Assembly: GCA_020054095.1 (NCBI GenBank)
Contig: JAGVMA010000058.1
Coordinates: 1 to 33,891, forward strand
Length of the DNA: 33,891 nucleotides
Direction: 5' to 3'
Source: Bacteroidia bacterium
GTDB taxonomy: Bacteria; Bacteroidota; Bacteroidia; JADZBD01
In this document: in pieces, positions 7,771 to 25,746 of the stretch
Position numbering within the stretch: position 1 is the first letter of the stretch
How the letters are laid out: each line of letters starts with the position of its first letter
Notes under the pieces: generated by a model
What the model was told of the DNA's origin: nothing
What the model saw: the letters and a program-made list of their open reading frames with translations, nothing else
Databases searched by the model: none
Translations under genes and position numbers: made by a program

Positions 7771-8386
7771 ATGAAAAAAACCACTCTGCTCATTTGAACC
7801 GCTTTATAGGCAGCGATTATAAATGCACAAAGTTCTAATAGCGATAGCCATACCATTGTTGGCTCATCGGTTATACACATCATTGGTTTTATACTTTGTT
7901 GCAGCCCTATCTATTTAGTAACGCCAACCTCGACCCTATTATTGACAGCTTAGCTAACCGAATTAGAAACGATGTATATGCCGACCCGAATAAATTTTTT
8001 ACCAATCAGCAATTTGAGGATAATCAAAGTATGAATATTACAAGTCAAGGAAATTATCCGGGATTAAAATCATTTATTACCAATCGCAGAAACTCTCTTA
8101 TGAGTTCGTTGGCTCCCTTTGGCTGCTACCTTAGCACTAACGATAATACTCGTAATAGTTATTTTTCAGTTTTCCCTAATCTGCAACAGATAATGTAACA
8201 CTGAAATTTGAAACCACAGAGGAAAGAATAAATGTGAAAATTTTCGACCTGCTTGGCAATATTGTTTTTGAGCAATATGCAGAAAACACTAACCAACTAA
8301 ACATAAGCACATCTTTTCTTTCATCGGATTTATTTTCAATTACTATAAACAATACATCGTTTAAAAAACCGGAAGTAATACGCTAA
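7771..8386 (+). pseudogene. decayed CotH-type T9SS cargo gene
   Basis: ATG 7771 starts a broken signal peptide (MKKTTLLI, two stops, then AAIINAQ). After a jump, frame 7896-8198 encodes NRIRNDVYADPNKFF and YPGLKSFITNRRNSLMSSLAPFGCY, which resembles the end of a CotH kinase domain (PGLKxFIxxRRxxL). At YFSVFPN the frame is lost. Bases 8180-8386 in another frame give SATDNVTLKFETTEERINVK, then IFDLLGNIVFEQ and a normal stop, which is a T9SS type A sorting domain continuing the FPN(P) motif. So signal, kinase tail and sorting tail survive, but the core is deleted and at least two frame breaks are present. The remnant differs from the intact CotH gene 48 bp downstream, so it is not a recent duplicate. 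Confidence 0.7.
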
Positions 8387-8433: not shown

Positions 8434-11400
8434 TTGAAAAAAATTTTACTCCTCACATTGCTTGTTTTAATTAACAGTAGTTTAACGCGAGCACAAATTG
8501 TAATTAACGAAGTATCGAGTGCGAGCGATGTTAATTTTTTAGATGAAGATGGCGATATGGAAGATTGGATTGAGCTTTACAACAGTTCTAACGCAGCAAT
8601 AAATCTTAACGGCTACAAAATAAGCAGAGTAGAAAATGGTGACACCAACTCATGGAAATTCCCTTCCATTATCATAAAACCCTACGACCATCTCACTGTT
8701 TATTGCTCCAAAAAAAACAGAAATATTTATTTCGATCATTGGGAAGTTCCGCTTTATCCGCAATTAAATTGGAAATATTTTGTAGGCACAGTTAACCCAC
8801 CGTCTAACTGGTACACCACCGGTTTTAACGATGGCACTTGGTTTAGCGGCCCGGCAAGTATTGGCTATGGTGATGGTGATGACGCTACAACTACACCACC
8901 AACGATGTCGGTTTTTATGCGCAGCAGTTTTAACATTACCGATACAAGTAAAATAGTTGCAGGTGCATTTCTAACCGATTTTGATGATGGCTTTGTTGCG
9001 TATCTAAATGGAGTTGAAGTAGCGCGCTATAATGTAGGCGTGCAAGGCGATTACCCATCTAATTCCGTTTCGGCCTATGATGAGCATGAAGCGCAATTTT
9101 ACCAGAATGGCGATTTATCAGGCATCTTTTACTTCGCTCCTGAAATAATTAACTCAGTAAAACAACCCGGCACCAATGTGTTTGCAATACAAACACATAA
9201 TTTTTCGGGAGGCACCGATGATTTAACACAACTGCCATATTTATTAATAGGCGTTAACGATACAAATGTAACCTACTACCCATTTGCTGCCGATGTGCGC
9301 CTGCATACCGATTTTAATCTAAACAGTACGGGCCAAACCATTATTTTAAAAAACGCTAACGGAACAATAGTTGACCAAGAACTAATTGGCGCCATGCAAA
9401 TGAACGATTCGCGTGGCAGACAAACTGATGGAGGAACAAACTGGTGCTTGTTTGATATAGCGAGCCCCGATACAACCAACAACAATTCTGTTTGCTATAC
9501 CGATTATGCAACTGCACCGGTTATTAGTTTACAATCAGGTTTTTATCCAACTAACCAAACCACTTCCATAGCAAGCACCACAAGCGGAACCATACGCTAT
9601 ACTACCGATGGCAGCGACCCTACAAATTTTTCTTTAGTTTACAGCAATCCTATTTCTATCGGCACTAATATGAGTTTGCGTGCGCGCGTTTTTCCATCAA
9701 ACTTTAATTTCCTGCCAAGTAAAATTGTAACCAATAATTATTTTATTAACGAGAATGTTACACTGCCGGTTGTGTCGCTAACATCCGATCCATTTAATCT
9801 TTTCGATAATAACTTTGGAATTTATATGCTTGGCCCAAATGCCGATAGCACCAACATTCCATTTTATGGCGCAAATTTTTGGAACGAATGGGACCGCCCT
9901 GCCAACATCGAATTTTTTGATAAACAGAAGGTTTTTCGTTTTGAAACCGATGCCTCAATAAAAATACAAGGCAACTGGTCGAAAGCTTGGCCGCAAAGAG
10001 GATTTACCATCAGAACAAAAGATAATTATGGCGGCACAGATATAAATTACACCATGTTTCCGGATAAGCCGCAAGTAAATAAATTAAAAGCATTTAATGT
10101 GCGCAATGCCGGCAGCGATTGGAACACCGGCCATATCCGTGATCGTTTTAACCATAAAACAATTAAAAAAACGCATGTAGATATTATGGATGCCGAGCCT
10201 TGCTTGCTTTTTATTAATGGGCAATATTGGGGTGTGTATGAATTGCGCGAGCGACAAGACAAAAATTACATTGAAGAAAACACAGGCATTGATGCCGATA
10301 AAATTGATTTGCTATCGTTTGATGGAAGTGTGATTGAAGGAACTAACGCTGCATTTATAAACATGGCAACATTCATGTACACTAACAATATGACATTAGC
10401 CCCCAATTACGATTCGGCAAAAGCAATGCTCGACATTGAAAATTTTTGCGATTATTTTATTTCCGAAACACATATTGTAAATATTGATTGGCTTGGCTCA
10501 TACACTAATAACATAAAATATTGGCGGCCCAATAATCCGCCCGGCAAGTGGCGTTATATTTTTTGGGATACAGATGTATCACTTGGCTTGGCTTCATTTT
10601 TTGATGGTGCAGATACTACTAATATGCTACTTAGGGCAATTATGCCTCCCACCTGGAATCCGCATTCCGCAATGCTATACGCGCTGCTTCAAAACACAGA
10701 ATTTCGCTATTACTTTATAAATCGTTATGCCGATTTACTGAACACTATTTTTCATCCCGTTAATCGTCAAAAGCTTTTGTACGCTTTGCGCGATGAAGTA
10801 GCACCCGAAATGACGCGCCATTTTAACAGATGGGGAAATCAATTTAATTGGTCGGGGATAGTGGGGCAATCTAACAATGTGCCACAATGGATGAGCGAAC
10901 TTGGCGAAATAGAACAATTTGATATAAACAGGCAAGCCATTTCGCGTAATCATATTGAATCTATTTTTCAATTAATAGAACAAGTAGATGTTACATTGCA
11001 AACATTGCCTGCCAATGCCGGTATCATTCAAATTAACACCATTATTCCCGATTCATTTCCGTGGACAGGAGTTTATTTTGACGGAGCGCCTGTTACAATG
11101 ACAGCAACTGCAAAACCCGGATATAAATTTTCGCACTGGCAATCAAATACAGTCCAACCTTCGGCATATACCAATGTTTCGCTCACCGTTAATGTAGATA
11201 ATGACGATACGTTCACCGCCTATTACCTGCCGCTTGAATACAGGATGGATGTTTTTCCTAATCCTTTTTCGGATGATGTTACCATTAACTTTGAGCTGCC
11301 TGCCGAAGCGCAAATTGCAATTACACTATTTGATGTGATAGGAAATAAAATTACCGATATAGTTTCAAACACCCAATTTACAGGCATGGGACAGCATAGC

Positions 11401-11508
11401 GTAAAATTTAATGCCAATGCTTATTCGCTTGCCAGCGGAATGTATTTTATAAAAATAAATGCCGGAGATTACTCAAAAACAGTGGAAATTATAAAAACCG
11501 ATGAATAA
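8434..11508 (+). CDS. CotH kinase family surface protein with T9SS sorting domain
   Basis: A 1024-residue modular protein starting at TTG 8434, the only start that keeps the signal peptide (KKILLLTLLVLINSSLTRAQ). In order: a lamin-tail domain (about 22-100, INEVSSASDVNF...DWIELYN, with a second half near 285-345), an inserted jelly-roll-like region (110-275), a chitobiase/HEX C-terminal-type repeat (365-432, GTIRYTTDGSDPT), and a CotH kinase domain (about 440-780). The kinase domain has SDWNTGHIRDRF, NGQYWGVYELRER and WRYIFWDTDVSLG; Asp712 and Asp714 are likely metal ligands. Next come an InlB-like beta segment (860-932, GYKFSHWQ) and a T9SS sorting domain (937-1024, MDVFPNPFSDDVT). CotH proteins are atypical protein kinases acting outside the cytoplasm. 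The protein probably reaches the surface through PorU/PorV. Confidence 0.9.
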   Translation: MKKILLLTLLVLINSSLTRAQIVINEVSSASDVNFLDEDGDMEDWIELYNSSNAAINLNGYKISRVENGDTNSWKFPSIIIKPYDHLTVYCSKKNRNIYFDHWEVPLYPQLNWKYFVGTVNPPSNWYTTGFNDGTWFSGPASIGYGDGDDATTTPPTMSVFMRSSFNITDTSKIVAGAFLTDFDDGFVAYLNGVEVARYNVGVQGDYPSNSVSAYDEHEAQFYQNGDLSGIFYFAPEIINSVKQPGTNVFAIQTHNFSGGTDDLTQLPYLLIGVNDTNVTYYPFAADVRLHTDFNLNSTGQTIILKNANGTIVDQELIGAMQMNDSRGRQTDGGTNWCLFDIASPDTTNNNSVCYTDYATAPVISLQSGFYPTNQTTSIASTTSGTIRYTTDGSDPTNFSLVYSNPISIGTNMSLRARVFPSNFNFLPSKIVTNNYFINENVTLPVVSLTSDPFNLFDNNFGIYMLGPNADSTNIPFYGANFWNEWDRPANIEFFDKQKVFRFETDASIKIQGNWSKAWPQRGFTIRTKDNYGGTDINYTMFPDKPQVNKLKAFNVRNAGSDWNTGHIRDRFNHKTIKKTHVDIMDAEPCLLFINGQYWGVYELRERQDKNYIEENTGIDADKIDLLSFDGSVIEGTNAAFINMATFMYTNNMTLAPNYDSAKAMLDIENFCDYFISETHIVNIDWLGSYTNNIKYWRPNNPPGKWRYIFWDTDVSLGLASFFDGADTTNMLLRAIMPPTWNPHSAMLYALLQNTEFRYYFINRYADLLNTIFHPVNRQKLLYALRDEVAPEMTRHFNRWGNQFNWSGIVGQSNNVPQWMSELGEIEQFDINRQAISRNHIESIFQLIEQVDVTLQTLPANAGIIQINTIIPDSFPWTGVYFDGAPVTMTATAKPGYKFSHWQSNTVQPSAYTNVSLTVNVDNDDTFTAYYLPLEYRMDVFPNPFSDDVTINFELPAEAQIAITLFDVIGNKITDIVSNTQFTGMGQHSVKFNANAYSLASGMYFIKINAGDYSKTVEIIKTDE

Positions 11509-11621
11509 TAATCCTTCACCGATTATATAAATAAACCACTAATAAATAGCTATACTTGTAACTACATAAGTCAAAAAAAATAATAACGCATAACTCATAC
11601 AATTAACTTAAAATTTACACC

Positions 11622-12038
11622 ATGAATAAATTCAAACTGATTACTGTTTTCGCGATTACATTAACACTTGTTATTTCGGCATGCAGCAAAGGAGCAGGCG
11701 AAGGCGGCAAGGCTACTATTTACGGAAAAGTAAGAGCACTTAACTATGACGCAACTTTTACAACACTACAAGCAAGTTACTATGCACAAGAAGAAAACGT
11801 ATTTATCATTTATGGCGATGACAGAAGTTATAGCCAATCAGTAAAAACAAATTACGATGGCACTTATGAGTTTAGGTATTTGCGCCCAGGAAATTACACT
11901 GTAGTAGTTTACTCAAAAGACTCAGCACGGTATAACGGCAACATAATTGCATCAAAAACAGTCGAAGTTGTAAAAGACGTGCAAATAAGTGGCAAGAAAG
12001 ATGAAGTGGAAGTTCCGGAAATTACCATATTGAAATAA
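11622..12038 (+). CDS. small lipoprotein with carboxypeptidase-regulatory-like beta domain
   Basis: A 138-residue lipoprotein. The signal ends LTLVISAC, with lipidated Cys21. The mature part (ATIYGKVRALNYD ... NYDGTYEFRYLRPGNYTVVVYSKDS ... VEVPEITILK) is a single Cna-B/carboxypeptidase-regulatory-like beta-sandwich, with the typical D-G-x-Y-x-F-x-x-L-x-P-G-x-Y core. Such domains are structural or ligand-binding, not catalytic. A TATACTTG box lies at 11551-11558, which could start a transcript separate from the CotH gene 113 nt upstream. It begins a tight run with the next three genes (4-nt gap, then overlaps), so it is probably a structural part of the CotH/VTC/DUF4956 locus. Confidence 0.8.
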   Translation: MNKFKLITVFAITLTLVISACSKGAGEGGKATIYGKVRALNYDATFTTLQASYYAQEENVFIIYGDDRSYSQSVKTNYDGTYEFRYLRPGNYTVVVYSKDSARYNGNIIASKTVEVVKDVQISGKKDEVEVPEITILK

Positions 12039-12042
12039 TTTT

Positions 12043-12660
12043 ATGCGTTTTAACTCAACAACTATTTACGTTTTTATAATTGCATATAGCATCAGCGGAA
12101 GCGCTTTTGCCCAAAGCAGAAAGCAAGTAAAGGCAAATAAAATAAAATCAGTAACTGAAAATACCATCGAGAAAATTAATGGCGCTGAAACAACATACAA
12201 AAGTGGTTATACTGCTTTTGATAAAGATGGAAACACCATTGAAAAAACAGATTACGCTGCTGATGGAAACGTGAAACGAAAACAAACTTTTAAGTTCGAC
12301 AGCAAAGGGAACAAATTAGAAGAAATCAACTTCGACCCCATTTTGCCCGACAAAAACCCGAAAACGGATGCCAACAAAACCGACAAGCGGAATGTAAAAT
12401 TTACATACAAGTATAATGTGAATGATGATAAAACCGAAGAAGTGGAAATAGATGGCGCTACCGGAAAACAAATTAAAAAAACACAATTCTCCTACAATGC
12501 CAATGGCGACAAGTCAATGGAAGTAGTGTATGACGAGAACAACGTACTCGCAAAAAAGTCGGTTTATACGTATGACAAAAAAGGATTGAAGATTGAAAAG
12601 AAAACTTACGATAGCGTCAATAATTTAATAGAAACAAAAAAATACGTGTATCAATATTAA
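12043..12660 (+). CDS. exported YD-repeat-like protein, function unknown
   Basis: A 205-residue protein with a signal peptide (YVFIIAYSISGSAFAQ, cleavage near residue 24). The mature part is highly charged and made of short tandem strands of the form (F/Y)-D-x-K/D-G-N-x-x-E, for example AFDKDGNTIEK, KFDSKGNKLEE, SYNANGDKSMEVVYDENN and TYDKKGLKIEKK. This is the pattern of YD/RHS-type beta repeats, probably periplasmic. No enzymatic residues are recognisable. The start is 4 nt after the lipoprotein gene. Its TAA shares one base with the ATG of the VTC gene (TAATG), so translation of the two is likely coupled. Confidence 0.75.
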   Translation: MRFNSTTIYVFIIAYSISGSAFAQSRKQVKANKIKSVTENTIEKINGAETTYKSGYTAFDKDGNTIEKTDYAADGNVKRKQTFKFDSKGNKLEEINFDPILPDKNPKTDANKTDKRNVKFTYKYNVNDDKTEEVEIDGATGKQIKKTQFSYNANGDKSMEVVYDENNVLAKKSVYTYDKKGLKIEKKTYDSVNNLIETKKYVYQY

Positions 12661-13427
12661 TGAGCATTGCTACTGCAAATACAGTTTTAAACAGTTTTAA
12701 TCCTATCACTTTATCCGAGATGGATAGTGTGAAACTAATGGACAGAACTGATACAAAATTTGTTTTTCACGTTAGTAAGCTGCCGCTGTTGCTCGAAAAA
12801 TTAAAACCACACTACCGCGCCTTAGAAGTAAGCGCGGCACGCATGAGCAAATACGAAACTCTGTATTACGATACAGCTAACTATGATTTATACATGCGCC
12901 ACCAGTGCGGAAAAATGAACAGGTTTAAAATTCGTTCGCGTAAATATGTAGAATCTGATTTATGTTTTTTTGAAATAAAATTCAAGAACAACAAAAAGCG
13001 AACAATTAAAAATAGAATTAAAACCAAAGGCATTGAACAAGAACTTGGCGACAAAAGCAAAAAACTGCTTGCCGAAAGCACAAGCATTGTACCCGATACA
13101 TTAAATGCAGCTTTGTGGGTAAATTATTCGCGCATTACACTGGTAAATAATTTATCGCCCGAGCGCCTAACAATTGATGTGGGTTTGCATTTTATAAAAA
13201 ACAATAACCGTGTAGATTATGGTAACTTGGTAATTGCTGAAGTAAAACAAGACAAAGCAAATTCTATTTCGCCTGTTTTAAGTACCATGAAAGAAATGCG
13301 CATACAAATTGGCTCCATCAGCAAATATTGCCTTGGCGTGATGAGCTGCGTACCCGATATAAAAATGAACAACTTTAAAGAAAACGTACGATACATTCAC
13401 AAAATAATAAACCATCATGCAGCTTAA
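12660..13427 (+). CDS. VTC domain (polyphosphate-polymerase-type) protein
   Basis: A 255-residue cytoplasmic protein that is essentially one VTC domain, the triphosphate-tunnel fold whose yeast member VTC4 makes polyphosphate from ATP. The charged tunnel residues line up by eye: DRTDTKF (29-34), YETLYYDT (65-72), RFKIRSRKY (88-96), FFEIKFK (103-109), YSRITL (156-161), RLTIDVG (169-175), VIAEVKQDK (191-199) and SISKYCLG (219-226). The basic ladder and the tunnel Glu residues are therefore conserved and the enzyme looks active. Whether the product is polyphosphate is not known for bacterial members. It overlaps the upstream gene by 1 base and the downstream DUF4956 gene by 11 bases. The VTC/DUF4956/CotH combination recurs in several phyla, which suggests one pathway. 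Confidence 0.9.
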   Translation: MSIATANTVLNSFNPITLSEMDSVKLMDRTDTKFVFHVSKLPLLLEKLKPHYRALEVSAARMSKYETLYYDTANYDLYMRHQCGKMNRFKIRSRKYVESDLCFFEIKFKNNKKRTIKNRIKTKGIEQELGDKSKKLLAESTSIVPDTLNAALWVNYSRITLVNNLSPERLTIDVGLHFIKNNNRVDYGNLVIAEVKQDKANSISPVLSTMKEMRIQIGSISKYCLGVMSCVPDIKMNNFKENVRYIHKIINHHAA

Positions 13428-14175
13428 ATCATTATCGCTAAAATTGTTTTTATTACTTGCATTTTTAATACCCGCCAGCTATAGCGTGGCACAAATCTTT
13501 CCTGATAATACACAAACGGAAGACATCAGTACCGATAAAAAGAAAAAGAAAAAAGATACAGCCGAAAAAGAAGAAGACTTTTTTCAATTTAAGCTCGATA
13601 AATTTAATTTCTCGTTTTTCTTACGCCTGATAATTGATATAGTAACCATGCTGGTTCTTATCCGTTTTATTTACTTCCCTATTTATCGTAAAAAAGATTT
13701 CTTTTTTACTTTTTTCATGTTCAACATTGTCATCTTTTTTATTACCTACTTGTTAAATAAAGTAGAACTATCAACAGGAGCAGCATTTGGCTTGTTTGCA
13801 GTTTTTTCCATGTTGCGTTACAGAACTGAAGATATATCGGCCAAAGACATGACCTACCTTTTCATTGTTATTGCACTCGGCATTATCACGGCTGTGAACA
13901 AGGGAAATTTGTTTGAAATATGCATCATCAATGCAATAGTAATAGTAATGGTAGTTGCACTCGATGGTAATTTATTTTTGAAAAACGAGATTATTAAAAA
14001 CATACAATACGATAACATAGAATTAGTAAAGCCAGAAAACCAAGCAGCATTACTCGAAGATTTAAAAAAGCGCACGGGTTTAAATATTCACAAAGTAAGT
14101 ATTGGCAAAGTAGATTACCTGCGCGATACTGCCACAGTTAAAATTTATTATTACGAAGAAGCAAGCAAACAATAG
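13417..14175 (+). CDS. DUF4956 inner-membrane protein
   Basis: A 252-residue protein. A signal-like helix (about 8-26, ending YSVAQ) is followed by a Lys-rich segment (KKKKKKDTAEKEED) and four or five transmembrane helices (about 67-90, 95-114, 118-132, 145-160, 165-183). The signature GAAFGLFAVFSMLRYRTEDI and AKDMTYLFIVIALG (119-157) is that of DUF4956. A soluble C-terminal alpha/beta domain (about 195-252, ALLEDLKKRTGLNIHKVSIG) lies in the cytoplasm. DUF4956 genes are very often next to VTC genes. I infer a membrane partner or channel for the VTC product, by analogy with yeast VTC4 that feeds a membrane tunnel. Many family members lack the exported-looking N-terminal extension. Confidence 0.88.
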   Translation: MQLKSLSLKLFLLLAFLIPASYSVAQIFPDNTQTEDISTDKKKKKKDTAEKEEDFFQFKLDKFNFSFFLRLIIDIVTMLVLIRFIYFPIYRKKDFFFTFFMFNIVIFFITYLLNKVELSTGAAFGLFAVFSMLRYRTEDISAKDMTYLFIVIALGIITAVNKGNLFEICIINAIVIVMVVALDGNLFLKNEIIKNIQYDNIELVKPENQAALLEDLKKRTGLNIHKVSIGKVDYLRDTATVKIYYYEEASKQ

Positions 14176-14228
14176 AAAGCACGAAGTATTATGTATAAAG
14201 TTTCAGAATCAGATTTATATACGATAAG

Positions 14229-14957
14229 ATGAAAACAATAATTACAAGTTTTAGTTTACTACTTATTAGCTGTGCAGCCATAGCGCAAGAAAACGACCTT
14301 GGTATGTGGAGCACATTAAACCTTAATTACTCGTTTAATAAAAAGGTGATGGCTTTTTACACGCAAGAATTTAGGTTAAAACAAAATTTTACGCGCATAA
14401 ATTTATTTTACAGCGAATTTGGATTACAATACAAGAAAAGCAAAAATTTTAAAGCGGCACTCTCTTACCGAAATATTCAAAAAGCTTATGACGATGGCTT
14501 TTACGGATTAAAACATCGCATACAATTAGATTTCACGTTTAAGAAAAAAGCGAACAATGTTGGCATAAGTTACCGCTCACGTTTTCAGGGTGAGGTGGGT
14601 TACCCGGGTGCCGATGAGTTTGGAATTAATTTTATTAAAGAATTTTACTGGCGACACAAATTCGATCTTAAATTTGAATTGTCCGACAGCAAACTAACAC
14701 CATATACTGGTACCGAATTACGTTTTATGCTCAGCAACCCGCGCGTGGACGAAATACAAGGATTTAATTTCGACCGCACACGCTTATATGCAGGCACCGA
14801 AATTGCCATTAACAACCGCCACACGTTAGATTTTTATTACCTCTTACAATTCGATTTTCAAACCAATAACCCCATAACACTTTCTATACTTGGTGTAGCT
14901 TACACCATTCAATTGGGTTATGCCGGCAGTGGTGGAAAAGGGAAAGGTGAGGAATAG
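14229..14957 (+). CDS. DUF2490 outer-membrane beta-barrel protein
   Basis: A 242-residue protein with a signal peptide (KTIITSFSLLLISCAAIAQ, cleavage near residue 20). The start of the mature part, NDLGMWSTLNLNYSFNKK, and later strands (YRNIQKAYDDGFYGLKHRIQLD, FYWRHKFDLKFELS, DRTRLYAGTEIAINNRHTLDFYY) are typical of DUF2490, a family of small barrels of unknown function. The end is Gly/Lys-rich and lacks the usual terminal aromatic residue. It follows DUF4956 by 53 nt on the same strand and closes the CotH/VTC locus, giving that locus an outer-membrane component. Confidence 0.85.
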   Translation: MKTIITSFSLLLISCAAIAQENDLGMWSTLNLNYSFNKKVMAFYTQEFRLKQNFTRINLFYSEFGLQYKKSKNFKAALSYRNIQKAYDDGFYGLKHRIQLDFTFKKKANNVGISYRSRFQGEVGYPGADEFGINFIKEFYWRHKFDLKFELSDSKLTPYTGTELRFMLSNPRVDEIQGFNFDRTRLYAGTEIAINNRHTLDFYYLLQFDFQTNNPITLSILGVAYTIQLGYAGSGGKGKGEE

Positions 14958-14959
14958 CC

Positions 14960-16475
14960 CTACACCTTAACCGCAAAAACGCAAACATCATCAAGTTGTT
15001 CGTAATTGGCTTGCCAAGTGGTAAATGTATGTTCTAAATTTTCTTGTTGTTCGGCTATGGGCAAATGAGCAATGGATGCAATTACTTGGTTCATGTTACC
15101 GGGGTTAAAGCCCATTTCATCCGTAAAATACTTTTTTTCGCCCGTTTTACTGTTCCAAATAATTGTTTTGCGATAAACCGAAATCCAAAAATTGCCTTCG
15201 CTATCTTGCGAAAACGATTCTATTGTTTCGTCCGTTAATCCTATTTCAGGATTCATAAATTTTACATTGTCGGTTTTTTCGTCATACGTGTAAAGGCCAT
15301 TGCCTGATAGTATCCAAGTCACTCCATCTTTATCGTAAAAAAAGTCTATAATATTATCATCCGGAAAAAAATATGGAACGTAAATGCTAAAGCCCACAAG
15401 GCCGTTAGCAATCCAAATATTTCCACCGGCATCTTTAGCTGTGGTAAATATTAAGTTATCGGCTAATGATTCGTTACTGTTTTTTTGCGATTGGATGTAA
15501 ACTCCCGATTGGTCATCAGGATTAACTTTTAATATCCCCGAACTTGTTGTGCCTATCCATAAGTTTCCGTTTTCATCTTTTATGCACGAGCGAGTATTTT
15601 CTAAATTAATTACATTATCGTCAACTTTTTTTCCTGATACGCGTTTGGCGGTTTTGTTTTTTGTGTCAAAGAACAGCAATCCACTATAAGTCTCTATCCA
15701 CAAATTATTGTTTTTATCAATTTCAATAAAGTGAACTGCACGTAACATCGCAGTAATACGCAAAACTGCGGCTTTATCTAAATTAATAAAGTAATCTTTA
15801 AAATCAAATGGTGTAAAAGCTTTTTAGAAGGATTAAAAAAACAGGTGCGGAATTATTATCATTCGCACCAAAAAATCCAAGTAAATACTCTTCATCATTC
15901 CACTTAAGCATTTCTTTTACTTGCGAACACGGTATAAGATTGGGTTTTGGCTCGTTAGTTTTCTGAAACTTGTAGTGATGAAACTCCTCTTTCTTTAAAT
16001 CTAACTCTATAAGTTCTTCGCCCCATGTAAGTAGCCACAATTTATTATCATCAAATTGTTTTATTTTAATTATTCCACCTGCTGGAAGTGATTTGGGATT
16101 TTTATCATCATGTAAATAGTGTTTGTATAAATTTTTAGCAGAGTTAAATTTTGTAAGCGCTACTTTATCAAAGTAAGAAATCCATATTTGGTCGCTCTCA
16201 TCTACTACAATAGCGCTGATATTGTTTGATAATATAGAATTAGAATCTTTCTCGTTTTGGAAATATCGCTTAGTGGTATAACCATTGTATGACAAAAAGC
16301 CCTTTTCGGTAACCATCCACATTTTTCCTGATTTATCCTATTGCTGATAAACGCATCGCTTAGTTCCAAAAATACTTGCATCAATATTGTGAAATTTTAC
16401 ATCGGCAATGTTTTGGGCTGCTAATGGTAGCAAAAAAGAGATGTAATAAAAAAATAGTGCTGCTTTAAGTTTCAC
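14960..16475 (-). pseudogene. decayed propeller-SpoIIE phosphatase sensor protein
   Basis: GTG 16475 starts a signal peptide (KLKAALFFYYISFLLPLAAQ) and the mature protein, but codon TAG at 16340-16338 interrupts it after CVYQQ. Reading on, propeller blades of the two-component-regulator type follow (GKMWMVTEKGFLSYNG, DQIWISYF, NNNLWIETYSGLLFFD, GNLWIGTTSSGILKV, GNFWISVYRK). The frame breaks twice near 15800-15841. Adding one base to the A7 run at 15835-15841 and one to the T5 run just before restores VFFNPSKKAFTPFDFKDYF. At the C-terminus the propeller jumps directly to LEHTFTTWQANYEQLDDV, the Q-x-D-D end of a SpoIIE/PP2C phosphatase, so the periplasmic stalk, membrane helix and most of the phosphatase are missing. 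Shorter apparent genes at 14960-15763 and 15804-16322 are pieces of it. Confidence 0.75.
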
Positions 16476-17185: not shown

Positions 17186-17665
17186 TCAGGCAGAAAAAAT
17201 AATGGCAGCAGCATAAGCGCAAACGCCATCTTCGCGGCCCACATAACCAAGTTTTTCGTTAGTTGTGGCTTTTATTGAAATATCGCCTTCGGATATTTGC
17301 ATTGCTACGGCAAGTGCTATTTGCATTTGCGGTATGTGTGGGTTTATTTTCGGATTTTCTAAACACACGGTAACGTCAATATTTCCGATTGTGTATTTTT
17401 TTTCGCGCAGCAGTTGCACTGTTTTTGCAAGTAAAATTTTGCTGTCGATATTTTTAAATTCCAATGCAGTATTAGGAAAGTGAAAACCTATATCGCGCAA
17501 GTTAGCAGCGCCAAGTAACGCATCGCATATTGCGTGTATCATCACATCGGCATCTGAATGGCCAAAAGCTCCTTTAGTATATTGCAACTGAATACCGCCT
17601 AACCAAAATGGATGATTATCTTTTAACGGATGAACATCGAAGCCAAAGCCAATACGAGGGCGCAT
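17186..17665 (-). CDS. ispF: 2-C-methyl-D-erythritol 2,4-cyclodiphosphate synthase
   Basis: A 159-residue enzyme of the MEP isoprenoid pathway that cyclises 4-diphosphocytidyl-methylerythritol 2-phosphate and releases CMP. Zinc ligands Asp10 and His12 (RIGFGFDVHPL) and His44 (DVMIHAICDAL), the HSDAD loop (36-40), the DIGFHFP motif (58-64) and the C-terminal KATTNEKLGYVGREDG active-site loop are all present. The protein forms trimers in the cytoplasm. Its ATG overlaps the porV stop (TAATG), so it is translationally coupled to an unrelated secretion gene. The window therefore shows an operon porU-porV-ispF. Confidence 0.97.
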   Translation of the reverse strand: MRPRIGFGFDVHPLKDNHPFWLGGIQLQYTKGAFGHSDADVMIHAICDALLGAANLRDIGFHFPNTALEFKNIDSKILLAKTVQLLREKKYTIGNIDVTVCLENPKINPHIPQMQIALAVAMQISEGDISIKATTNEKLGYVGREDGVCAYAAAIIFSA

Positions 17666-18936
17666 TAATTGCTCGGTGTTTCGGATGTTTTCTTTGAACT
17701 GTCTAAATCAAACAGTAAAGAAAAACGCAAAGTGTTTTGCAATGGGTTACGCTGCGTGGTAGGTATTAAATAAGCAAAGTCAAAACCAAACACGGTGTAT
17801 TTAATACCAAAACCAACGGTGAAATATTTACGATTGCCTTTTGTGGCAGCTTCGTTAAAATAACCGGCACGCACAGCAAATAGTTTTCCTTTATCGTTAC
17901 TGTACCAATATTCTACTCCGCCAGCTAAAATATATTCGCGTAATTCTTCTTTAAATCCGGCAGGTGCATCGTTAAATGAGCCAAGCATTCCGCTTACCAC
18001 TCCTCTATTTGGGTCTTTGCCGCTTTCTATAACATAGCCACCTGCAGGATCGGGTATGAAATTACCATTCGAGTCTTTTGCGTAAAGAGGTGGAGTTGGT
18101 ACTAATAGTTTATTAATATCCATTAAAAATGTAATACTGTTATAGTTATCTAATTTCATTTCTAAACCTCCGCCCAAGCGTAAATTAATAGGAATAAAGT
18201 TTTTAATGCCAGAAGATGTGTAAGCAATTTTGGCTCCTAAGTTAGAAATATTGAAGCCCCCCGTAACAACCGATTTTTTCCCGCTTAATTCTACTTGCTT
18301 ATTTTGGTAGAAACCTGATACATCAACCGAAAAGGATGTACCCGGACGGGTAGAGCTTCCACCTGCGTTAGCGTTTCCTGTTAGGTTAGAATATATAAAC
18401 CGTGCTGCACCTCCGCCTGAAAAAAATTCGCCTAATTTAATTCCGTAAGCTGCATCTAATGCAAATTCGTTAGGCCGAAACTGCCCTGTAACATTTCCAA
18501 CAACATCGGTAAAAGTAATATCGCCTAATGAAAAATAGCGAAGCGATGTAGCAAATGTTCCTTTTTTAAAGCGGTGATAATACGAAAGGTATGCTAAGTT
18601 AATATCGGGTACTAATGCACGCAGCCATGGTGTGTACGAAATGCCTAAGCCCATTTTTTTATCCAAGAAAGCAAGTTTAGAGGGATTCCAGTGAATACTG
18701 TTCGCATCGGGTGATGATGCAACGCCTAAATCGCCCATGCCGCCTGCGCGTGAATCGGGAGAAATTAAAAGAAAAGGCACAGATGTGGTAATTGTGTTAA
18801 GCTGACCTAATAATTGACTTGTGGTTAACGAATTACCTTGAGCATTTAAAGAGTTGCCGCCATTTGAGAAAAAAGTATTTGCAAAAATGGCAAGACACAA
18901 TGTAGTGATTTTTATATTGGGCATCATATTCGTCAT
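17665..18936 (-). CDS. porV: type IX secretion system outer-membrane protein PorV
   Basis: A 423-residue outer-membrane barrel of the FadL/PorV type. The mature N-terminus carries the diagnostic TSVPFLLISPDSRAGGMGDLGV and DANSIHWNPSKLAFLDKKMG. The next segment, GLGISYTPWLRALVPDINLA, and RYFSLGDITFTD follow as in other PorV proteins. PorV binds the C-terminal sorting domains of T9SS cargo at the SprA translocon and shuttles cargo to the PorU sortase. The signal peptide is at about residues 1-33; Met4 and Met5 are alternative starts. It is 42 bp downstream of porU and overlaps ispF. This product is the likely acceptor for the CotH protein encoded at 8434. Confidence 0.95.
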   Translation of the reverse strand: MTNMMPNIKITTLCLAIFANTFFSNGGNSLNAQGNSLTTSQLLGQLNTITTSVPFLLISPDSRAGGMGDLGVASSPDANSIHWNPSKLAFLDKKMGLGISYTPWLRALVPDINLAYLSYYHRFKKGTFATSLRYFSLGDITFTDVVGNVTGQFRPNEFALDAAYGIKLGEFFSGGGAARFIYSNLTGNANAGGSSTRPGTSFSVDVSGFYQNKQVELSGKKSVVTGGFNISNLGAKIAYTSSGIKNFIPINLRLGGGLEMKLDNYNSITFLMDINKLLVPTPPLYAKDSNGNFIPDPAGGYVIESGKDPNRGVVSGMLGSFNDAPAGFKEELREYILAGGVEYWYSNDKGKLFAVRAGYFNEAATKGNRKYFTVGFGIKYTVFGFDFAYLIPTTQRNPLQNTLRFSLLFDLDSSKKTSETPSN

Positions 18937-18978
18937 CTAAATTTCTTTGGGTTTTAACTAAACGGTGAATTTATTAAT

Positions 18979-21900
18979 TTATTTTAAAATAACTAATTTT
19001 TCGTACTTGCTGGCCACTTGCCCATCGGCACTTTGAACTTTTATAGCATATACGTAAACCCCTTTTGCAAGCTGATCGCCAAATTCATCTTGTCCGTTCC
19101 ACTCAATTCCTTCGGTGCGATAGCCTTCACATTTCACTTTTTTGTTTATCGTTTTTACTAATTTGCCCGATATAGTCATTACCTGTATTTGAATATCTAA
19201 TTCGCCAAAGGGTTGATTAGATTCAACAAAAAACTGTGTTTTAGATGTAAACGGATTGGGATAGTTTAAAACATTGTCTATCGCCATTTTCTCAGATGAG
19301 GCAACAACAAACCGTGTGGAAACAACAGAGGAGTTATTGTAAACATCCCACACTTTAAGCACTACATTGTGCTCGCCCACGCTCATGTCTTCTAATCTGT
19401 ATTTTACAGCGCCTTTCTTGAAATTGTTTAAATCCGATTGGTAATAATCATTCAGCACAAGCACTTCGTTTGTATTGGCATCAAGCACAGCTGTAATATC
19501 GTGGCCAATGCCGTTACCAACCGTGTTCACGCCATTGGAATCACTAACGATAGCAAAAATATAAGGGTTTTCATCTGTGATGCCGCCATCTACAAATTTT
19601 ATATCATTCATATAAAGTTTCACGTCAGGGCCTGTATTATCTACCGGGGCAGTTAAATCCGTTCCGCCAATAATAATGTTTTCATATACTCCATGTCCAT
19701 CTTCGACTCCGTTATGTGTGTAATAACTTATTTTACCTGGCCCGTATTGATAAGCAATATCTTTAGGCACCACAAATGTGAATGTGAAATCGCCATTAAC
19801 TACACTTGCTTTGCCTTTAAAAAGAATATTTTTTTGCAAACCAAATTTAATTAAAGGGCTAGCGTTAACACCATCGTTAGAGCGAGTGCTTACATTTGCC
19901 ATTTTATCAAAAATGGTAGGGAAGATTATTCCGTTAAAGTTAGTGAGTTTGTTTCCGTTTAAATCGCGTACCTCGCCCGTAACGGTTACTTTACTAAGTG
20001 CTTTTGCAGTATCTGGCACAGAAGGATTAACAGGTACTGTGTTTACAAGTGTGGTTGCCACCCGATATTTTGGGTAAGATAATTTTAGTGCCGGATCGCA
20101 GAGCAAAGTAAAGTTGCGTGTGTTTTCATCGGGGTTGAGGGTTGATTTAGTGAGCATATATAAATCGCCAAGTGCCGGAGTGCGGCCACCCATAATTGTA
20201 TCGAGCAAAGCATATCTAAAAAAATTGTAGTTAAGGGTGAAGTTTGGTCCGGCATAAACTAGGCGTACAGTTGACATTAAGCCGATACCTGCACCTTTGG
20301 GATTAAGAAAAACATATTCTCCGGCCGATGTTCTTACTGGATCGTCCCATCTACTGAATTCGCAGGTTGCGGTAATCCACAATGGCATATTGCAAATGCC
20401 TTCCCACCCATTAATTTGCGAAACTTCAATAATTCGTTCATGCGCTAAGCCCACTTCGCCACCGTGGCCGGTATAGTTAATAATCAATGCACCTTTTTGA
20501 ACACGCTTATTAATTGCATCCACAACATCGGGGTATCTGTTTCCGCCAGGTGTAGATACCTGATTGTAAGCATCAAGATATATTTTATCAATGTTGTAAT
20601 ATAGATAAGTACTATCTACATAATCAGCAATTGCCTCTGCTTGGTTTAAATGCAAGCCACCATCTTCATCATCGGCTATAAAGCAAATCCAATGGCGCCA
20701 ATCACCAAACGGTGTGCAGTTATTCTCATCGCAATTAACAATGTTCGTATAATCAACTGCACCCGGTTGAGATACGTATTTTTTTATTTTGTTGAGTGCC
20801 GATTGTGATTCGCTTTTGGTTTTTACAGGCATACGGCCTATTCCTATGTCAATTTGGTCTAAATCATTAGGGCCATATGCTCCTTCATTAATACCCATCA
20901 TTGCAAAATAATCATCGGCAACATAAGAGCGCGTGGGGTCGAGTGAGTTTTGCGATTGGTAGGTTACAATAAAATTAGTGTTGTTGGCAAGTCTGTTTTT
21001 ATTGTCATAAGAGCCATCGCCATAAAACAGAGCATAATGTGGTAGTTCATTAAAATTTTGAGCACGCGTGTAAAACATTCTCAAAAAATCTCTTATTGCA
21101 GTTGCATCTCGCGCACCTGACGAAAACTCATTAAACACTTGCTGCTCTGTTACTACATGTACTGTTAAACCGTCATTTGTTTGGTGAAGTGTGGCAAGTT
21201 CACTTGCTTCTGAAAGAAATAATGGGTCGCAAATAATTATCATATCTGCTTGCGAAAGGCCATGTAAGTTTTGATTAGCTACTGCGTCAAATAGTGTAGG
21301 TGTTAAAAATGATTGACCGTTAAAAGCAACATATTCTTTAAGAGTATCTGATAATTGAGTGAAGTCAACTGTATTTACATTAAAATTTGATTGTTGAAAT
21401 TTCACTGTTGCAGGATCGGTAACATCCCAAATTTGAATTGCTGAGGTAGCTGATGATAAAACAAACTGTGATACATTTCCGGCACCCACGCTGTTCACAT
21501 CTCTGAAAAAAAGTTGGCTACCATTCATCACCAAGTTTCTGCGAGCGGTAACTTCAATATAATTTAACCAGCCAACATAGCTTGAGGAGTTGGTAGGCGA
21601 TGTACGCGTAACTGTTACCGGGAAATTGGATGTAGATACATTGGCATTAAAGCACGATGAACCCGGATTGGCATAAATTGCAAAATAAGTGTTAACATTA
21701 GTAGCATTTGTATTTATGTTAGATGAACCATTACCTGCACTCACTAAGAAATTAGAAATCACATCCGCTCTTCCTATTAAATCAGTTTTCACATTTACAG
21801 GTGTGCTTACATCTATATTCGGAAAATCAAAGCCGAATGTGTAGCTATTTAAAACATCAAACTGCTCTCCATACCACTCCTTACCCGATTTTATAAGGTT

Positions 21901-22911
21901 GGTAGCATCGCTTTCATGAAATTTGTAATCGTTAAAGGATGTTACAGTATTGGTAACCGAAGCAGTGGACGATGATTGGTTTGAAATTCTTTTTCCTGCC
22001 GATCCGGCATCTAAGGTAATAAAATAATAAGTTGTATCAGAATACCCGTGTGTAACATGCTTGAACTGCCCACAACCTGCCGCATCATAATACCATCTGT
22101 GCTGAGATTGTCCGTAAAACAAAATATAATCTGTCGAATCAAATATGCCTGCGGTGCCGCCATCGAAAACATAAATTGCGTTCTCTTGCAAATCATCTTT
22201 ACGTGGGTCGCTGTTTTTAGCCGGCACTAAACCACCTCCATTTCCATAAAGTTTTATGTTATCCGGATTCGCTCCACTCACACTTACCCCCAGTGTTTGT
22301 AATTGCGTATAAGTAATTTTATAAATTCCATCTTGCGTTAAACCCACTTTATGCCAGTTACCGTTTGCTAATACAGAGTTAGCAACAAAGTTTGACGGTG
22401 ATACTGTTTTCTGAGTAATATCAACTGTTTCAGTAACAGTAAAGTCAAATGAAATTAACTTTTCCCATTTGCCTGTTTGCACATTTTTACGGAAAGGGTT
22501 TATTTTTATAAATGCAAAATATTCTTTTTTTATCTCGGCTACATTAATTTGCGAAAAAGGTAAATCAGCTTGCTTTGAGTTTACAATTTGAGCAGATTTG
22601 CTTTTATCGAAAATTACCTGCTCAGCAGCATTCAGAGGCTCAAATTGCTCATTGGTTATATTTAATTGGCATTTGGGCTGATTTTTTGAACCCAGTTTCA
22701 GTTTTTCATAGTAAAACGGAAGGTAATTGATACTGATATCGTATTGAGCGCCTTCAAAAAACAAATAACTTCGCTCCACTAAATCAATAGAAGTTGATTT
22801 TACGGCTTGTTTCCAAATCAGTTTTCTGTTGTTTGCAAAAGCGCTTAGCGAAAAGAAAACCAATACCATTAATGGCAAAAAATGACGAACTGTTCTTTTA
22901 ATCATATACAT
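18979..22911 (-). CDS. porU: type IX secretion system sortase PorU
   Basis: A 1310-residue exported C25 (gingipain-type) cysteine peptidase that removes the sorting domain of T9SS cargo and attaches cargo to the cell surface. Signal peptide about 1-27 (LPLMVLVFFSLSAFA). The N-terminal beta region is followed by the caspase-like domain (about 555-945), with ALFYGDGSYDNKNR, DIGIGRMPVKT, the catalytic His816 in INYTGHGGEVG and Cys850 in WITATCEFSRWDDP. The C-terminus (about 1215-1310, NVLNYPNPFTSKTQFF ... LAKGVYVYAIKV) is itself a sorting-type domain, which in PorU is retained. Met1 and Met3 (MYMIKR) are equal candidates. A TAAATTTA box (22918-22925) would allow only a very short leader. It heads the porU-porV-ispF operon. 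Confidence 0.95.
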   Translation of the reverse strand: MYMIKRTVRHFLPLMVLVFFSLSAFANNRKLIWKQAVKSTSIDLVERSYLFFEGAQYDISINYLPFYYEKLKLGSKNQPKCQLNITNEQFEPLNAAEQVIFDKSKSAQIVNSKQADLPFSQINVAEIKKEYFAFIKINPFRKNVQTGKWEKLISFDFTVTETVDITQKTVSPSNFVANSVLANGNWHKVGLTQDGIYKITYTQLQTLGVSVSGANPDNIKLYGNGGGLVPAKNSDPRKDDLQENAIYVFDGGTAGIFDSTDYILFYGQSQHRWYYDAAGCGQFKHVTHGYSDTTYYFITLDAGSAGKRISNQSSSTASVTNTVTSFNDYKFHESDATNLIKSGKEWYGEQFDVLNSYTFGFDFPNIDVSTPVNVKTDLIGRADVISNFLVSAGNGSSNINTNATNVNTYFAIYANPGSSCFNANVSTSNFPVTVTRTSPTNSSSYVGWLNYIEVTARRNLVMNGSQLFFRDVNSVGAGNVSQFVLSSATSAIQIWDVTDPATVKFQQSNFNVNTVDFTQLSDTLKEYVAFNGQSFLTPTLFDAVANQNLHGLSQADMIIICDPLFLSEASELATLHQTNDGLTVHVVTEQQVFNEFSSGARDATAIRDFLRMFYTRAQNFNELPHYALFYGDGSYDNKNRLANNTNFIVTYQSQNSLDPTRSYVADDYFAMMGINEGAYGPNDLDQIDIGIGRMPVKTKSESQSALNKIKKYVSQPGAVDYTNIVNCDENNCTPFGDWRHWICFIADDEDGGLHLNQAEAIADYVDSTYLYYNIDKIYLDAYNQVSTPGGNRYPDVVDAINKRVQKGALIINYTGHGGEVGLAHERIIEVSQINGWEGICNMPLWITATCEFSRWDDPVRTSAGEYVFLNPKGAGIGLMSTVRLVYAGPNFTLNYNFFRYALLDTIMGGRTPALGDLYMLTKSTLNPDENTRNFTLLCDPALKLSYPKYRVATTLVNTVPVNPSVPDTAKALSKVTVTGEVRDLNGNKLTNFNGIIFPTIFDKMANVSTRSNDGVNASPLIKFGLQKNILFKGKASVVNGDFTFTFVVPKDIAYQYGPGKISYYTHNGVEDGHGVYENIIIGGTDLTAPVDNTGPDVKLYMNDIKFVDGGITDENPYIFAIVSDSNGVNTVGNGIGHDITAVLDANTNEVLVLNDYYQSDLNNFKKGAVKYRLEDMSVGEHNVVLKVWDVYNNSSVVSTRFVVASSEKMAIDNVLNYPNPFTSKTQFFVESNQPFGELDIQIQVMTISGKLVKTINKKVKCEGYRTEGIEWNGQDEFGDQLAKGVYVYAIKVQSADGQVASKYEKLVILK

Positions 22912-23104
22912 TGAGTGTAAATTTACGTAAAAAATTCATTGTGATTTTGTTTTTTTAAGCAATTGAAAGCAACTGTTTAAGGTATACAACGTCATAGTAG
23001 TTGAAATATTGTGTAAGATTGATTAAATTTCACAAAATGAGTAATAATATTTTAATTGTTAATAATTTATTTGTATTATTGTGCCACTAAAATCGACCCC
23101 ATAT

Positions 23105-24058
23105 ATGTTTAAACGTATACTAACCTTAGTTGCTTTCATTTCTGTAATGGCGAGCGATTCGGTTTGGGCTCAAGACCCTGAGTTTACACAGTTTTATGCC
23201 AATCCGCTTTATTTAAATCCTGCTTTTGCCGGATCGGCACGCTGCCCAAGAATTGCGTTAAACTACCGTAACCAGTGGCCTGCGCTTACAGGAACCTTTG
23301 TTACATATAGCGCTTCGTACGACCAACATTTTGATGCATTAGCAGGCGGTGTTGGTTTTTTAGTTACTAACGATAAAGCCGGTGAAGGAACACTTATAAC
23401 AACCAATATTAGCGGTATATATTCATACCAACTAAATCTTACTCGCGAGTTTTCAATGAAATTTGGCTTCCAGGCCACTTATGCTCAGAAAAAAGTAGAT
23501 TGGGATAAATTAACATTTGGCGATATGATTGACCCTCGCAGGGGATTCGTTTTCACCACTTTAGAGCAACGAAATCAAACTGCAAGATCAAACATTGATT
23601 TGTCGGCAGGTTTATTAGGTTATAGCAAGCGTTATTTCTTCGGTTTTGCAGTTAATCACTTAACCGAGCCCGATGAAGGTTTCTTAGGTCAGTCTAAATT
23701 GCCGATGAAGTACACAGGACATGCCGGAGCAGTTATTCCTCTTGACGGACGTAGTGGCGAAGCAAGTATATCGCCAAACATATTATTCCAAAAACAACAA
23801 GATTTTATTCAGTTAAACTTGGGACTATACGTATCTAAAGGACCAATTGTAGGTGGATTATGGTACAGAAACGAAGATTCTTTTATTGCATTAATAGGAT
23901 TCCAGCAAGGATTAGTAAAAATGGGTTATAGCTATGATGTAACTATCTCTAGATTAGCTAATGCCAGTGCAGGTTCGCATGAAATTTCGTTTCAAATGCA
24001 GTTTACTTGCCGCCCAAAAAAGAAGAAATTCCGTACAGTAAGTTGCCCTTCTTTTTAA
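23105..24058 (+). CDS. PorP/SprF family T9SS outer-membrane protein
   Basis: A 317-residue barrel. I chose ATG 23105 because the signal peptide then begins normally (FKRILTLVAFISVMA ... VWAQ); an in-frame GTG at 23081 would add eight odd residues. The mature start, QDPEFTQFYANPLYLNPAFAGSA, is the PorP/SprF hallmark, followed by RNQWPALTG and ASYDQHFDALAGGVG. Members pair with PorK/PorN rings or with partner surface proteins such as SprB adhesins. It is divergent from porU, with a 193-bp gap, and is followed by gldJ. Because paralogues are numerous, I do not assign a specific symbol. The C-terminus ends TVSCPSF, with a terminal aromatic residue. Confidence 0.93.
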   Translation: MFKRILTLVAFISVMASDSVWAQDPEFTQFYANPLYLNPAFAGSARCPRIALNYRNQWPALTGTFVTYSASYDQHFDALAGGVGFLVTNDKAGEGTLITTNISGIYSYQLNLTREFSMKFGFQATYAQKKVDWDKLTFGDMIDPRRGFVFTTLEQRNQTARSNIDLSAGLLGYSKRYFFGFAVNHLTEPDEGFLGQSKLPMKYTGHAGAVIPLDGRSGEASISPNILFQKQQDFIQLNLGLYVSKGPIVGGLWYRNEDSFIALIGFQQGLVKMGYSYDVTISRLANASAGSHEISFQMQFTCRPKKKKFRTVSCPSF

Positions 24059-24087
24059 ATAAATCAAAATAAATCACTAATATTGTA

Positions 24088-24109
24088 ACCTTAAATTGTA
24101 AATTAAGGT
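24088..24109. promoter_or_regulatory. short dyad upstream of gldJ
   Basis: ACCTTAA (24088-24094) and TTAAGGT (24103-24109) pair around 8 bases between the porP-like gene and gldJ. It could be a weak attenuator or protein site. No T run follows. Confidence 0.25.
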
Positions 24110-24141
24110 ATAAAGTCAATTACAAAAAAACATCATTACAG

Positions 24142-25722
24142 ATGAGCGTTAAAAACTTGACCAGGAAAGCGCTGATATTTTCAGCCCTCGCTGCTTTAAC
24201 AGTAGCTTGTAATAAAGAAACCTCTCCCATAACAGGATGGGATTATAATGATGCCGATAATGGCGGATTTGAGGTTTTACCATACACGGAACAGGAAACA
24301 GGACCAGGACTTGTATTAATAGAGGGCGGCCGTTTTACTATGGGCCGTGTTGAACAGGATGTTCAATACGATTGGAACAATATTCCGCGCACGGTAACTG
24401 TATCATCATTTTACTTAGATGAAACAGAAGTGCGTAATCTCGACTGGTTAGAATACCTTTGGTGGTTGCAACGCGTTTATGCGTTTGACGATGTATTTAA
24501 AGAAGTATTCATTAAAGCATTGCCGGATACATTAGTATGGCGCGATCCACTTGCTTATAACGAACCTTATGTAGAGTATTACCTCCGCCATCCGGCTTAC
24601 CGCGATTATCCTGTGGTAGGTGTTAACTGGTTACAATGTAACGATTTTTGTACTTGGCGTACAGATCGCGTGAACGAGTACATCTTAATCCGCGAAGGCA
24701 TTTTTGATTGGGACTTAGGACAAACACTTGCTAATAACTTTAATACCGATGCCTATTTAGCAGGTAAATTTACGGGTAATGTAAAACAAAATATACCAAA
24801 ACCCGATGGAACCGATCGTCCGGTAAAAATGGAAGATGGTATTTTATTACCGAAGTATCGCCTACCCACAGAGGCAGAGTGGGAATTTGCATCTTTTGGC
24901 TTAATCGGCAACATGTCGCCTGATTACATTATTAAAGAACGTAAAATTTACCCATGGACCGGGCAAGCTATACGTAACCCCGAAGAAAAATTCATTGGTG
25001 ATTTCTTAGCCAACTTTAAACGCGACAAAGGTGATAACATGGGTATTGCCGGTAAATTGAATGATGCCGGAGATATTACTACACCTGTTTTCTCATACTG
25101 GCCTAATGATTATGGATTATATAACATGGCAGGTAACGTGAGTGAGTGGGTTTTAGATACTTATCGTGATTTATCTCCTGAAGATTTCTCTGACTTCCGC
25201 CCATTTCGTGGTAATGTGTTTCAAACATGGATGAAAGACTCAGCAAACGCTAATGATATGATGGTTGACCAAGGTGATTCATTGATTTATGATGCTGAAG
25301 GCAACTTAGTTACTCGTCCGGGCATGTTACTAAAACGGAATGTTGACATCAAATACAAAGACGACCATTTAGATGAGCGCAGAAACTATAAATATGCCGA
25401 CTATATTAACTACTTGGATGGTGACCATAAAAACTCATCTATGTTCTATGATGTGGATGTTCCTCAGGATAATCCAAACTACTTGATGTATCAATACCCT
25501 ATTTCAAAAGATAAGCAACAACAGCCGCGCGAAGAGTTCCAATCATCTATGATAAACAACAAATCGAAAGTTTACAAAGGCGGTTCATGGAAAGATCGCG
25601 CATACTGGATGAGCCCTGGCACACGCAGATATCTTGATCAAAGACAATCTACTGCTTATATCGGCTTCCGTTGCTGCATGACTCGTGTAGGTAGCCCAAT
25701 CGGAAACGGTGGAAAAAAATAG
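24142..25722 (+). CDS. gldJ: gliding motility lipoprotein GldJ
   Basis: A 526-residue lipoprotein (signal ending LAALTVAC, lipid Cys23). The mature start has the GldJ-type TGWDYNDADNGGFEV, then a formylglycine-generating-enzyme (SUMF1) fold from about 55 to 515: LVLIEGGRFTMG, SSFYLDETEVRN, YPVVGVNWLQCNDFCTWR, YRLPTEAEWEFAS, NMAGNVSEWVLD, KVYKGGSWKDRAYW and IGFRCCM. GldJ stabilises the GldK ring component of the T9SS/gliding machinery and is not a true sulfatase-modifying enzyme. It is downstream of a PorP-like gene and immediately upstream of murF, a pairing also seen in gliding bacteria. The large insert between 240 and 470 is normal for GldJ. Symbol assigned on fold, signature and neighbour; GldK would be the main alternative. 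Confidence 0.88.
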   Translation: MSVKNLTRKALIFSALAALTVACNKETSPITGWDYNDADNGGFEVLPYTEQETGPGLVLIEGGRFTMGRVEQDVQYDWNNIPRTVTVSSFYLDETEVRNLDWLEYLWWLQRVYAFDDVFKEVFIKALPDTLVWRDPLAYNEPYVEYYLRHPAYRDYPVVGVNWLQCNDFCTWRTDRVNEYILIREGIFDWDLGQTLANNFNTDAYLAGKFTGNVKQNIPKPDGTDRPVKMEDGILLPKYRLPTEAEWEFASFGLIGNMSPDYIIKERKIYPWTGQAIRNPEEKFIGDFLANFKRDKGDNMGIAGKLNDAGDITTPVFSYWPNDYGLYNMAGNVSEWVLDTYRDLSPEDFSDFRPFRGNVFQTWMKDSANANDMMVDQGDSLIYDAEGNLVTRPGMLLKRNVDIKYKDDHLDERRNYKYADYINYLDGDHKNSSMFYDVDVPQDNPNYLMYQYPISKDKQQQPREEFQSSMINNKSKVYKGGSWKDRAYWMSPGTRRYLDQRQSTAYIGFRCCMTRVGSPIGNGGKK

Positions 25723-25746
25723 ATAATCATTTAGCTACATTTTATT

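Follow-up and report, generated by a model that had tools for sequence, protein, structure and literature searches.

How a protein kinase exported to the ATP-poor surface of a bacterium is powered is, to our knowledge, an open question, and it is raised by a run of six genes in a 33,891 nt stretch of DNA from a Bacteroidia bacterium (assembly GCA_020054095.1, contig JAGVMA010000058.1, positions 1 to 33,891; this whole stretch is called the window below). The genes encode a CotH-family kinase, a small lipoprotein (LP), an exported basic repeat protein, a VTC-domain protein, a DUF4956 membrane protein and a DUF2490 protein (Table 1). The original prediction, made from the sequence alone, was that VTC makes a polyphosphate-like polymer which DUF4956 helps across the inner membrane, the exported CotH kinase using phosphate chemistry outside. 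All six open reading frames (ORFs) were recovered where they had been placed, all on the + strand, and so was the tight spacing claimed for 11622-14175 (4 nt gap between LP and repeat genes, 1 nt overlap between repeat and VTC genes, 11 nt overlap between VTC and DUF4956 genes); the gaps flanking this block are 113 nt (CotH-LP) and 53 nt (DUF4956-DUF2490).

Comparison of related loci confirmed that the six genes are one conserved unit spanning the envelope. Loci carrying the DUF4956 subtype of the window (type A) were mapped (116, or 112 after removal of duplicates) and same-strand neighbours were counted, CotH with a kinase-only profile; these loci are the best search matches rather than a random sample, so the counts are not frequencies, and many of the loci end at contig edges. 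The neighbours were VTC in 102 loci, DUF2490 in 88, LP in 57, the CotH kinase in 56 and the repeat protein in 54, with all six genes present in 27 and the commonest full order (CotH–LP–repeat–VTC–DUF4956–DUF2490) matching that of the window. The cassette recurs in many Bacteroidota families, where the neighbour of DUF2490 is either DUF4956 or LP. Among 105 VTC matches, 88 lie directly before a type A DUF4956 gene, always in the order VTC then DUF4956 (median spacing of the two ORFs −21 nt in 110 loci, with mechanically assigned starts), and 10 adjoin a divergent type B DUF4956, which precedes VTC in six cases, several of these loci continuing with CotH. Broken cassettes are mostly split in one way: the VTC–DUF4956 pair is kept (L199, L063), and LP, joined by DUF2490, the repeat protein or both, forms a second half at another place (L193, L194, L202, L203 and L205), which in L193 and L194 has CotH immediately in front. 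In a set of 198 genomes of the class the LP gene was found in 87, and 85 of these 87 strong-match LP genomes also carry type A DUF4956 (p 2e-37), the other two being incomplete genomes (81% and 69%). As the parts are kept together though they stand on different contigs, the two halves appear to share a function.

The same class set and a second, phylum-wide draw of 198 genomes were searched for VTC, DUF4956 and CotH, co-occurrence beyond chance having been set beforehand as a test of the original prediction; such co-occurrence was found. DUF4956 was found in 109 class genomes, VTC in 95 and CotH in 113; no class genome had VTC without DUF4956 (95/95 paired, Fisher p = 8e-42) and 93 of the 95 VTC genomes had CotH (Fisher p = 1.5e-33). 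The phylum draw agrees, with DUF4956 and CotH both present in 37/37 VTC genomes, 33 of which are absent from the class set (Fisher p = 5e-25 for VTC-DUF4956 and 8e-18 for VTC-CotH), and two control genomes, those of Corynebacterium glutamicum and Methanosarcina acetivorans, likewise contain all three families. The number of CotH genes follows the same pattern: with at most about ten matches scored per genome, the class mean was 4.53 in genomes with VTC and DUF4956, 1.80 in those with type A DUF4956 lacking VTC and 0.15 in those lacking DUF4956 (3.5 vs 0.33 copies in the phylum draw). Presence of CotH within 21 mixed families was likewise skewed, at 57/64 DUF4956-positive vs 6/33 DUF4956-negative genomes (p ≤ 5e-5 by permutation within families). 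Most CotH copies lie outside the cassette, so that physical linkage does not account for the association, and loss of the type IX secretion system (T9SS) does not explain loss of CotH, because PorV is present in 189/198 class genomes; being nearly universal, PorV offers no contrast in the class by which dependence on T9SS could be read from co-occurrence. The copy-number contrast thus suggests, but does not prove, that the cassette supplies or controls exported CotH kinases.

The VTC protein looks catalytically competent, in agreement with the original description of it as apparently active. A PDB search with the single sequence gave no match, but a profile matched yeast Vtc4 (3g3q, 5.5e-14), and the top 13 PDB fold matches of a structural model (predicted local distance difference test, pLDDT, 95) were all VTC subunits. 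Thirteen residues invariant in 47 VTC homologues (R29, K33, R92, R94, E105, K107, K117, R158, R169, E194, K196, S221 and K222 in the window) align in order with R196, K200, R264, R266, E279, K281, K294, R361, R373, E426, K428, S457 and K458 of Vtc4 (numbering derived from the 8i6v chain). The basic tunnel residues and the metal-binding Glu (E194) of Vtc4 are kept, as in a member of that family, and Vtc4 is inactivated by R264A/R266A/E426N (PMC9911596). That VTC polymerizes phosphate is plausible. The likeness to the yeast VTC complex covers the tunnel fold and tunnel residues of a cytoplasmic enzyme and its constant pairing with a membrane protein; unlike the yeast complex, the window protein has no SPX or VTC1-type domain of three transmembrane (TM) helices, carries an acidic residue at position 31, is paired with a five-TM, MgtC-like partner and has an activity that is predicted. 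A role for DUF4956 as a VTC1-type channel subunit was considered and dropped, the protein being MgtC-like instead.

In this partner five TM helices are predicted after an N-terminal helix that is either cleaved off or kept as a sixth, and a beta-alpha-beta-beta domain ends the chain. That C-terminal domain and a loop with a conserved R134 and the invariant R136 would, according to the positive-inside rule, face the cytoplasm, on the side of VTC. The last domain weakly resembles ACT domains; neither single-sequence nor profile searches found a significant PDB relative of the protein, and its model had no significant fold match. By profile comparison, DUF4956 is a remote relative of MgtC. The Pfam MgtC model matched one type B DUF4956 gene unprompted (6.3e-4, below cut-off), the comparison of MgtC and type B profiles gave 97.6% and a score of 85.3 (40 block-shuffled controls, ≤ 33.7; reversed, 18.4), and that of type B and type A gave 96.7% and a score of 71.9 (shuffled controls, ≤ 27.0). 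As the direct hhalign comparison of MgtC with type A was not significant (2.5%), the link to type A is transitive, through type B only. The likeness to MgtC/SapB is thus one of a homologous membrane region; the window DUF4956 differs in standing in another gene context and is not recognized by the MgtC model, the MgtC match in its own genome being another gene. DUF4956 is named only rarely in the literature, where we found no paper stating a link to MgtC. The Bacteroides thetaiotaomicron DUF4956–DUF2490 pair BT3498–99 is listed as lower under low iron with P = 0.175 (PMC10434189), and was not used as evidence.

At the other end of the cassette, the kinase domain of CotH matches Bacillus CotH (5jd9, E 7e-41, PDB profile), and its D685 and D712 align with the catalytic D228 and D251, of which the D228Q and D251A mutants are inactive (PMC7821199). 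The window protein shares the kinase domain and both catalytic aspartates with this spore-coat kinase, but it has further modules, among them LTD and a T9SS tail, does not belong to the coat of a spore former and was found with no CotB/CotG-type substrate. Its tail is recognized as a T9SS sorting domain (Pfam Por_Secre_tail 4e-10, TIGR04183 2.3e-10), as are the tails of 49/79 CotH genes near VTC in related loci, and porV, porU, porP and a gldK-like gene stand beside the cassette in the window. Sorting tail and neighbouring genes together mark CotH as predicted T9SS cargo.

From the unity and co-inheritance of the genes, the fold and tunnel residues of VTC, the catalytic residues and secretion tail of CotH and the homology of DUF4956 to MgtC, we infer a single trans-envelope system serving exported CotH kinases, a reading that we put forward tentatively, as possible rather than probable. 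VTC would use ATP in the cytoplasm to build a phosphate chain, polyphosphate being the likeliest; DUF4956, MgtC-like and with its last domain turned towards VTC, would convey this chain, or else phosphate status, over the inner membrane or gate its passage; from there the path would run through periplasm and outer membrane by way of LP, the basic repeat protein and the DUF2490 barrel; and CotH, exported by the type IX route, would phosphorylate surface proteins or glycans with the product supplied. The positive charge of the repeat protein (median net +8) and DUF2490 (+12, against a background of +1) might fit such a path for a polyanion. Of the polymer-export model in the original prediction, the conserved envelope-spanning unit, the competent-looking VTC and the co-occurrence have stood, whereas a strict reading, in which DUF4956 would need VTC, has not.

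Several observations weigh against the reading. VTC was never found without DUF4956, but DUF4956 is independent of VTC: three genomes of two genera in family f29 (G028, G070, G104; loci L089, L190, L191) keep LP–repeat–DUF4956–DUF2490 with VTC cleanly missing and not found elsewhere in the genome, G070 having two CotH-profile genes in front of its VTC-less cassette, and in the phylum draw 18/22 DUF4956-positive, VTC-negative genomes, most of them in family f79, keep CotH. DUF4956 rather than VTC is therefore the more constant partner of CotH. Where VTC is missing, DUF4956 would need to be fed from elsewhere, for example by PPK1. All seven type A, VTC-less, CotH-bearing class genomes do have PPK1, which fits substitution of VTC by PPK1 there, although PPK1 is so common (156/198) that this is not significant; the source organism of the window has PPK1 as well as VTC. 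The converse idea, VTC as a replacement for PPK1, was rejected, the two not being associated (p = 0.22). The partnership with CotH also has exceptions, in that the control Bacteroides ihuae has VTC and DUF4956 but no CotH, and that CotH occurs in the absence of DUF4956 in 11 genomes of the class set and 26 of the phylum draw, among the latter G290, which has six copies of it. Nor do we know of any MgtC relative that acts as a polymer channel, and we found no biochemistry in the literature on bacterial VTC, DUF4956 or CotH-cassette members. One MgtC relative, that of Salmonella, instead promotes phosphate uptake through PhoR (PMC6658541). Finally, all 47 VTC proteins have D or E at position 31, which corresponds to Thr198 of Vtc4 and, in tunnel hydrolases, to the second Glu of the ExExK motif; that Glu belongs to a second metal site missing in Vtc4 (PMC4641920). 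R29 stands at the first Glu of that motif and the third Glu position was mapped without certainty, and because of the acidic position 31 synthesis and hydrolysis cannot be told apart from the VTC sequence.

The recurrence of CotH, VTC and DUF4956 that the original prediction took as known is indeed on record, and it suggests another function. In streptococci, clostridia and bifidobacteria, pelDEADAFG is directly joined by genes for CotH, a polyphosphate polymerase (PPP) and DUF4956 (PLoS Pathog 2020, PMC7112168), and a Clostridium perfringens locus has a run of VTC–(DUF4956-sized protein)–CotH (PMC2879425). The unit might thus modify or regulate an exopolysaccharide or matrix polymer, for example with CotH phosphorylating a glycan or matrix protein and VTC and DUF4956 as control parts, the six-gene form of Bacteroidota being a version, for an envelope polymer, of the accessory set (CotH-PPP-DUF4956-DUF4832) that accompanies Gram-positive Pel operons. 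A type B locus in Bacteroidia, where DUF4956-VTC-CotH has genes for an MBOAT acyltransferase and an O-antigen-ligase-like protein as neighbours, points the same way. The window, however, differs from the accessory set in lacking Pel genes and DUF4832, in adding LP, the repeat protein and DUF2490, and in having a CotH that is predicted T9SS cargo. Moreover, neither the cassette nor the scanned window neighbours (integrase, DUF5723, ispF, porV, porU, porP, an FGE-sulfatase domain protein and unassigned ORFs) include a glycosyltransferase, acyltransferase or Pel-like gene, while some type B neighbours are unnamed. We consider a surface-polymer function somewhat unlikely for the cassette.

The acidic residue at position 31, the link to MgtC with its effect on phosphate uptake in Salmonella, and the retention of DUF4956 where VTC has been lost would all suit a module for sensing phosphate or metal, in which VTC acts as a phosphatase of the tunnel type or senses nucleotides, the MgtC-like DUF4956 controls membrane energetics and the handling of phosphate or Mg2+, and the output of CotH is adjusted by signal instead of being fed by polymer. 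Against this, VTC keeps the equivalent of the catalytic Lys458 of Vtc4 along with all other tunnel residues, its best fold matches are VTC subunits and not hydrolases, and sensing alone leaves the co-inheritance of LP, the repeat protein and DUF2490 unaccounted for; we judge this alternative, too, somewhat unlikely. Co-inheritance without shared function, through an old neighbourhood beside the T9SS genes porU-porV-ispF and joint loss by deletion, is very improbable. In its favour, porU/porV adjoin the cassette both here and in 24/117 loci; against it, most loci lie away from porUV, the halves are inherited together even where they stand on separate contigs, and CotH paralogues elsewhere in the genome vanish along with the cassette genes.

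To return to the trans-envelope system, its most specific form is that a phosphate chain from VTC-DUF4956, guided by LP, the repeat protein and DUF2490, replaces ATP as the phosphate donor of surface CotH. This we regard as doubtful, and decidedly less probable than the system itself. If true, bacteria would have a supply line dedicated to phosphorylating proteins or glycans outside the cell, for which we know of no precedent; a literature search found no relevant paper on polyphosphate as donor for secreted bacterial kinases, nor any account of the cassette in Bacteroidota, of its division into two halves or of the dependence of CotH copies on it. As the CotH repertoire tracks VTC–DUF4956, copies elsewhere in the genome included, the question of how such kinases are powered becomes directly testable. 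DUF4956, a family without an assigned function, gains a remote relative in MgtC and a fixed partner, and VTC-like enzymes may be second bacterial polyphosphate makers beside PPK1.

Table 1. Cassette genes and other features of the window.
Feature	Position	Strand	Characteristics and evidence
CotH-family protein kinase, 1024 amino acids (aa), TTG start	8434..11508	+	Signal peptide, LTD, CHB_HEX_C_1, kinase domain (residues 509-834), T9SS C-terminal sorting tail (Por_Secre_tail); Pfam CotH 3.5e-37, PDB profile match
LP, small lipoprotein, 138 aa	11622..12038	+	Lipobox ...SAC then SKGAGEGG; possible transthyretin-like beta domain
Exported basic repeat protein ('YD-like'), 205 aa	12043..12660	+	Signal peptide; repeats
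VTC-domain triphosphate-tunnel protein, cytoplasmic, 255 aa	12660..13427	+	Pfam VTC 6e-28; Vtc4 profile match; model
DUF4956 membrane protein	13417..14175	+	Pfam 1.2e-54; model pLDDT 83
DUF2490 protein, probable outer-membrane beta-barrel	14229..14957	+	Pfam 9.2e-26
Second CotH gene remnant, pseudogene	7896..8385	+	C-terminal kinase part and frameshifted tail; tblastn, weak Pfam CotH match
Tyrosine recombinase (phage-integrase family, XerC/D-like)	938-1822
Two fragments, apparently one broken regulator gene	14960-16322	-	Reg_prop (two-component regulator propeller) matches
T9SS core genes	17186-30147		ispF, porV, porU (peptidase C25), porP/sprF, FGE-sulfatase-domain (gldK-like), further ORFs

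Two of the smaller proteins bore out their first description in part. The lipobox of LP stands, while its beta domain has a weak transthyretin-like Pfam match (2.5e-5, below cut-off); the 'YD-repeat' protein has its signal peptide, but its repeats are visible by eye only and no Pfam family above cut-off matched. A role in anti-phage defence was rejected, as PADLOC gave no match. LP variants in L081, L084, L198 and L203 are tandem multi-domain forms and also occur inside proteins of 677-717 aa. Possible fusions were seen for DUF4956 (L195, G008:C136, gene at 5874 on the − strand, a match in a 491-aa frame adjoining a putative VTC, which frame may be an artefact) and for VTC (G312:C10:73350-74027, a match within a 787-aa open frame). 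Contigs with type A DUF4956 in Methanoperedens, Thioploca and Bifidobacterium records (L143, L166, L174) may reflect binning contamination or transfer. The CotH remnant upstream of the cassette has 62% identity over 7899-8180 (tblastn) to an intact 521-aa CotH at the same place in the relative L031.

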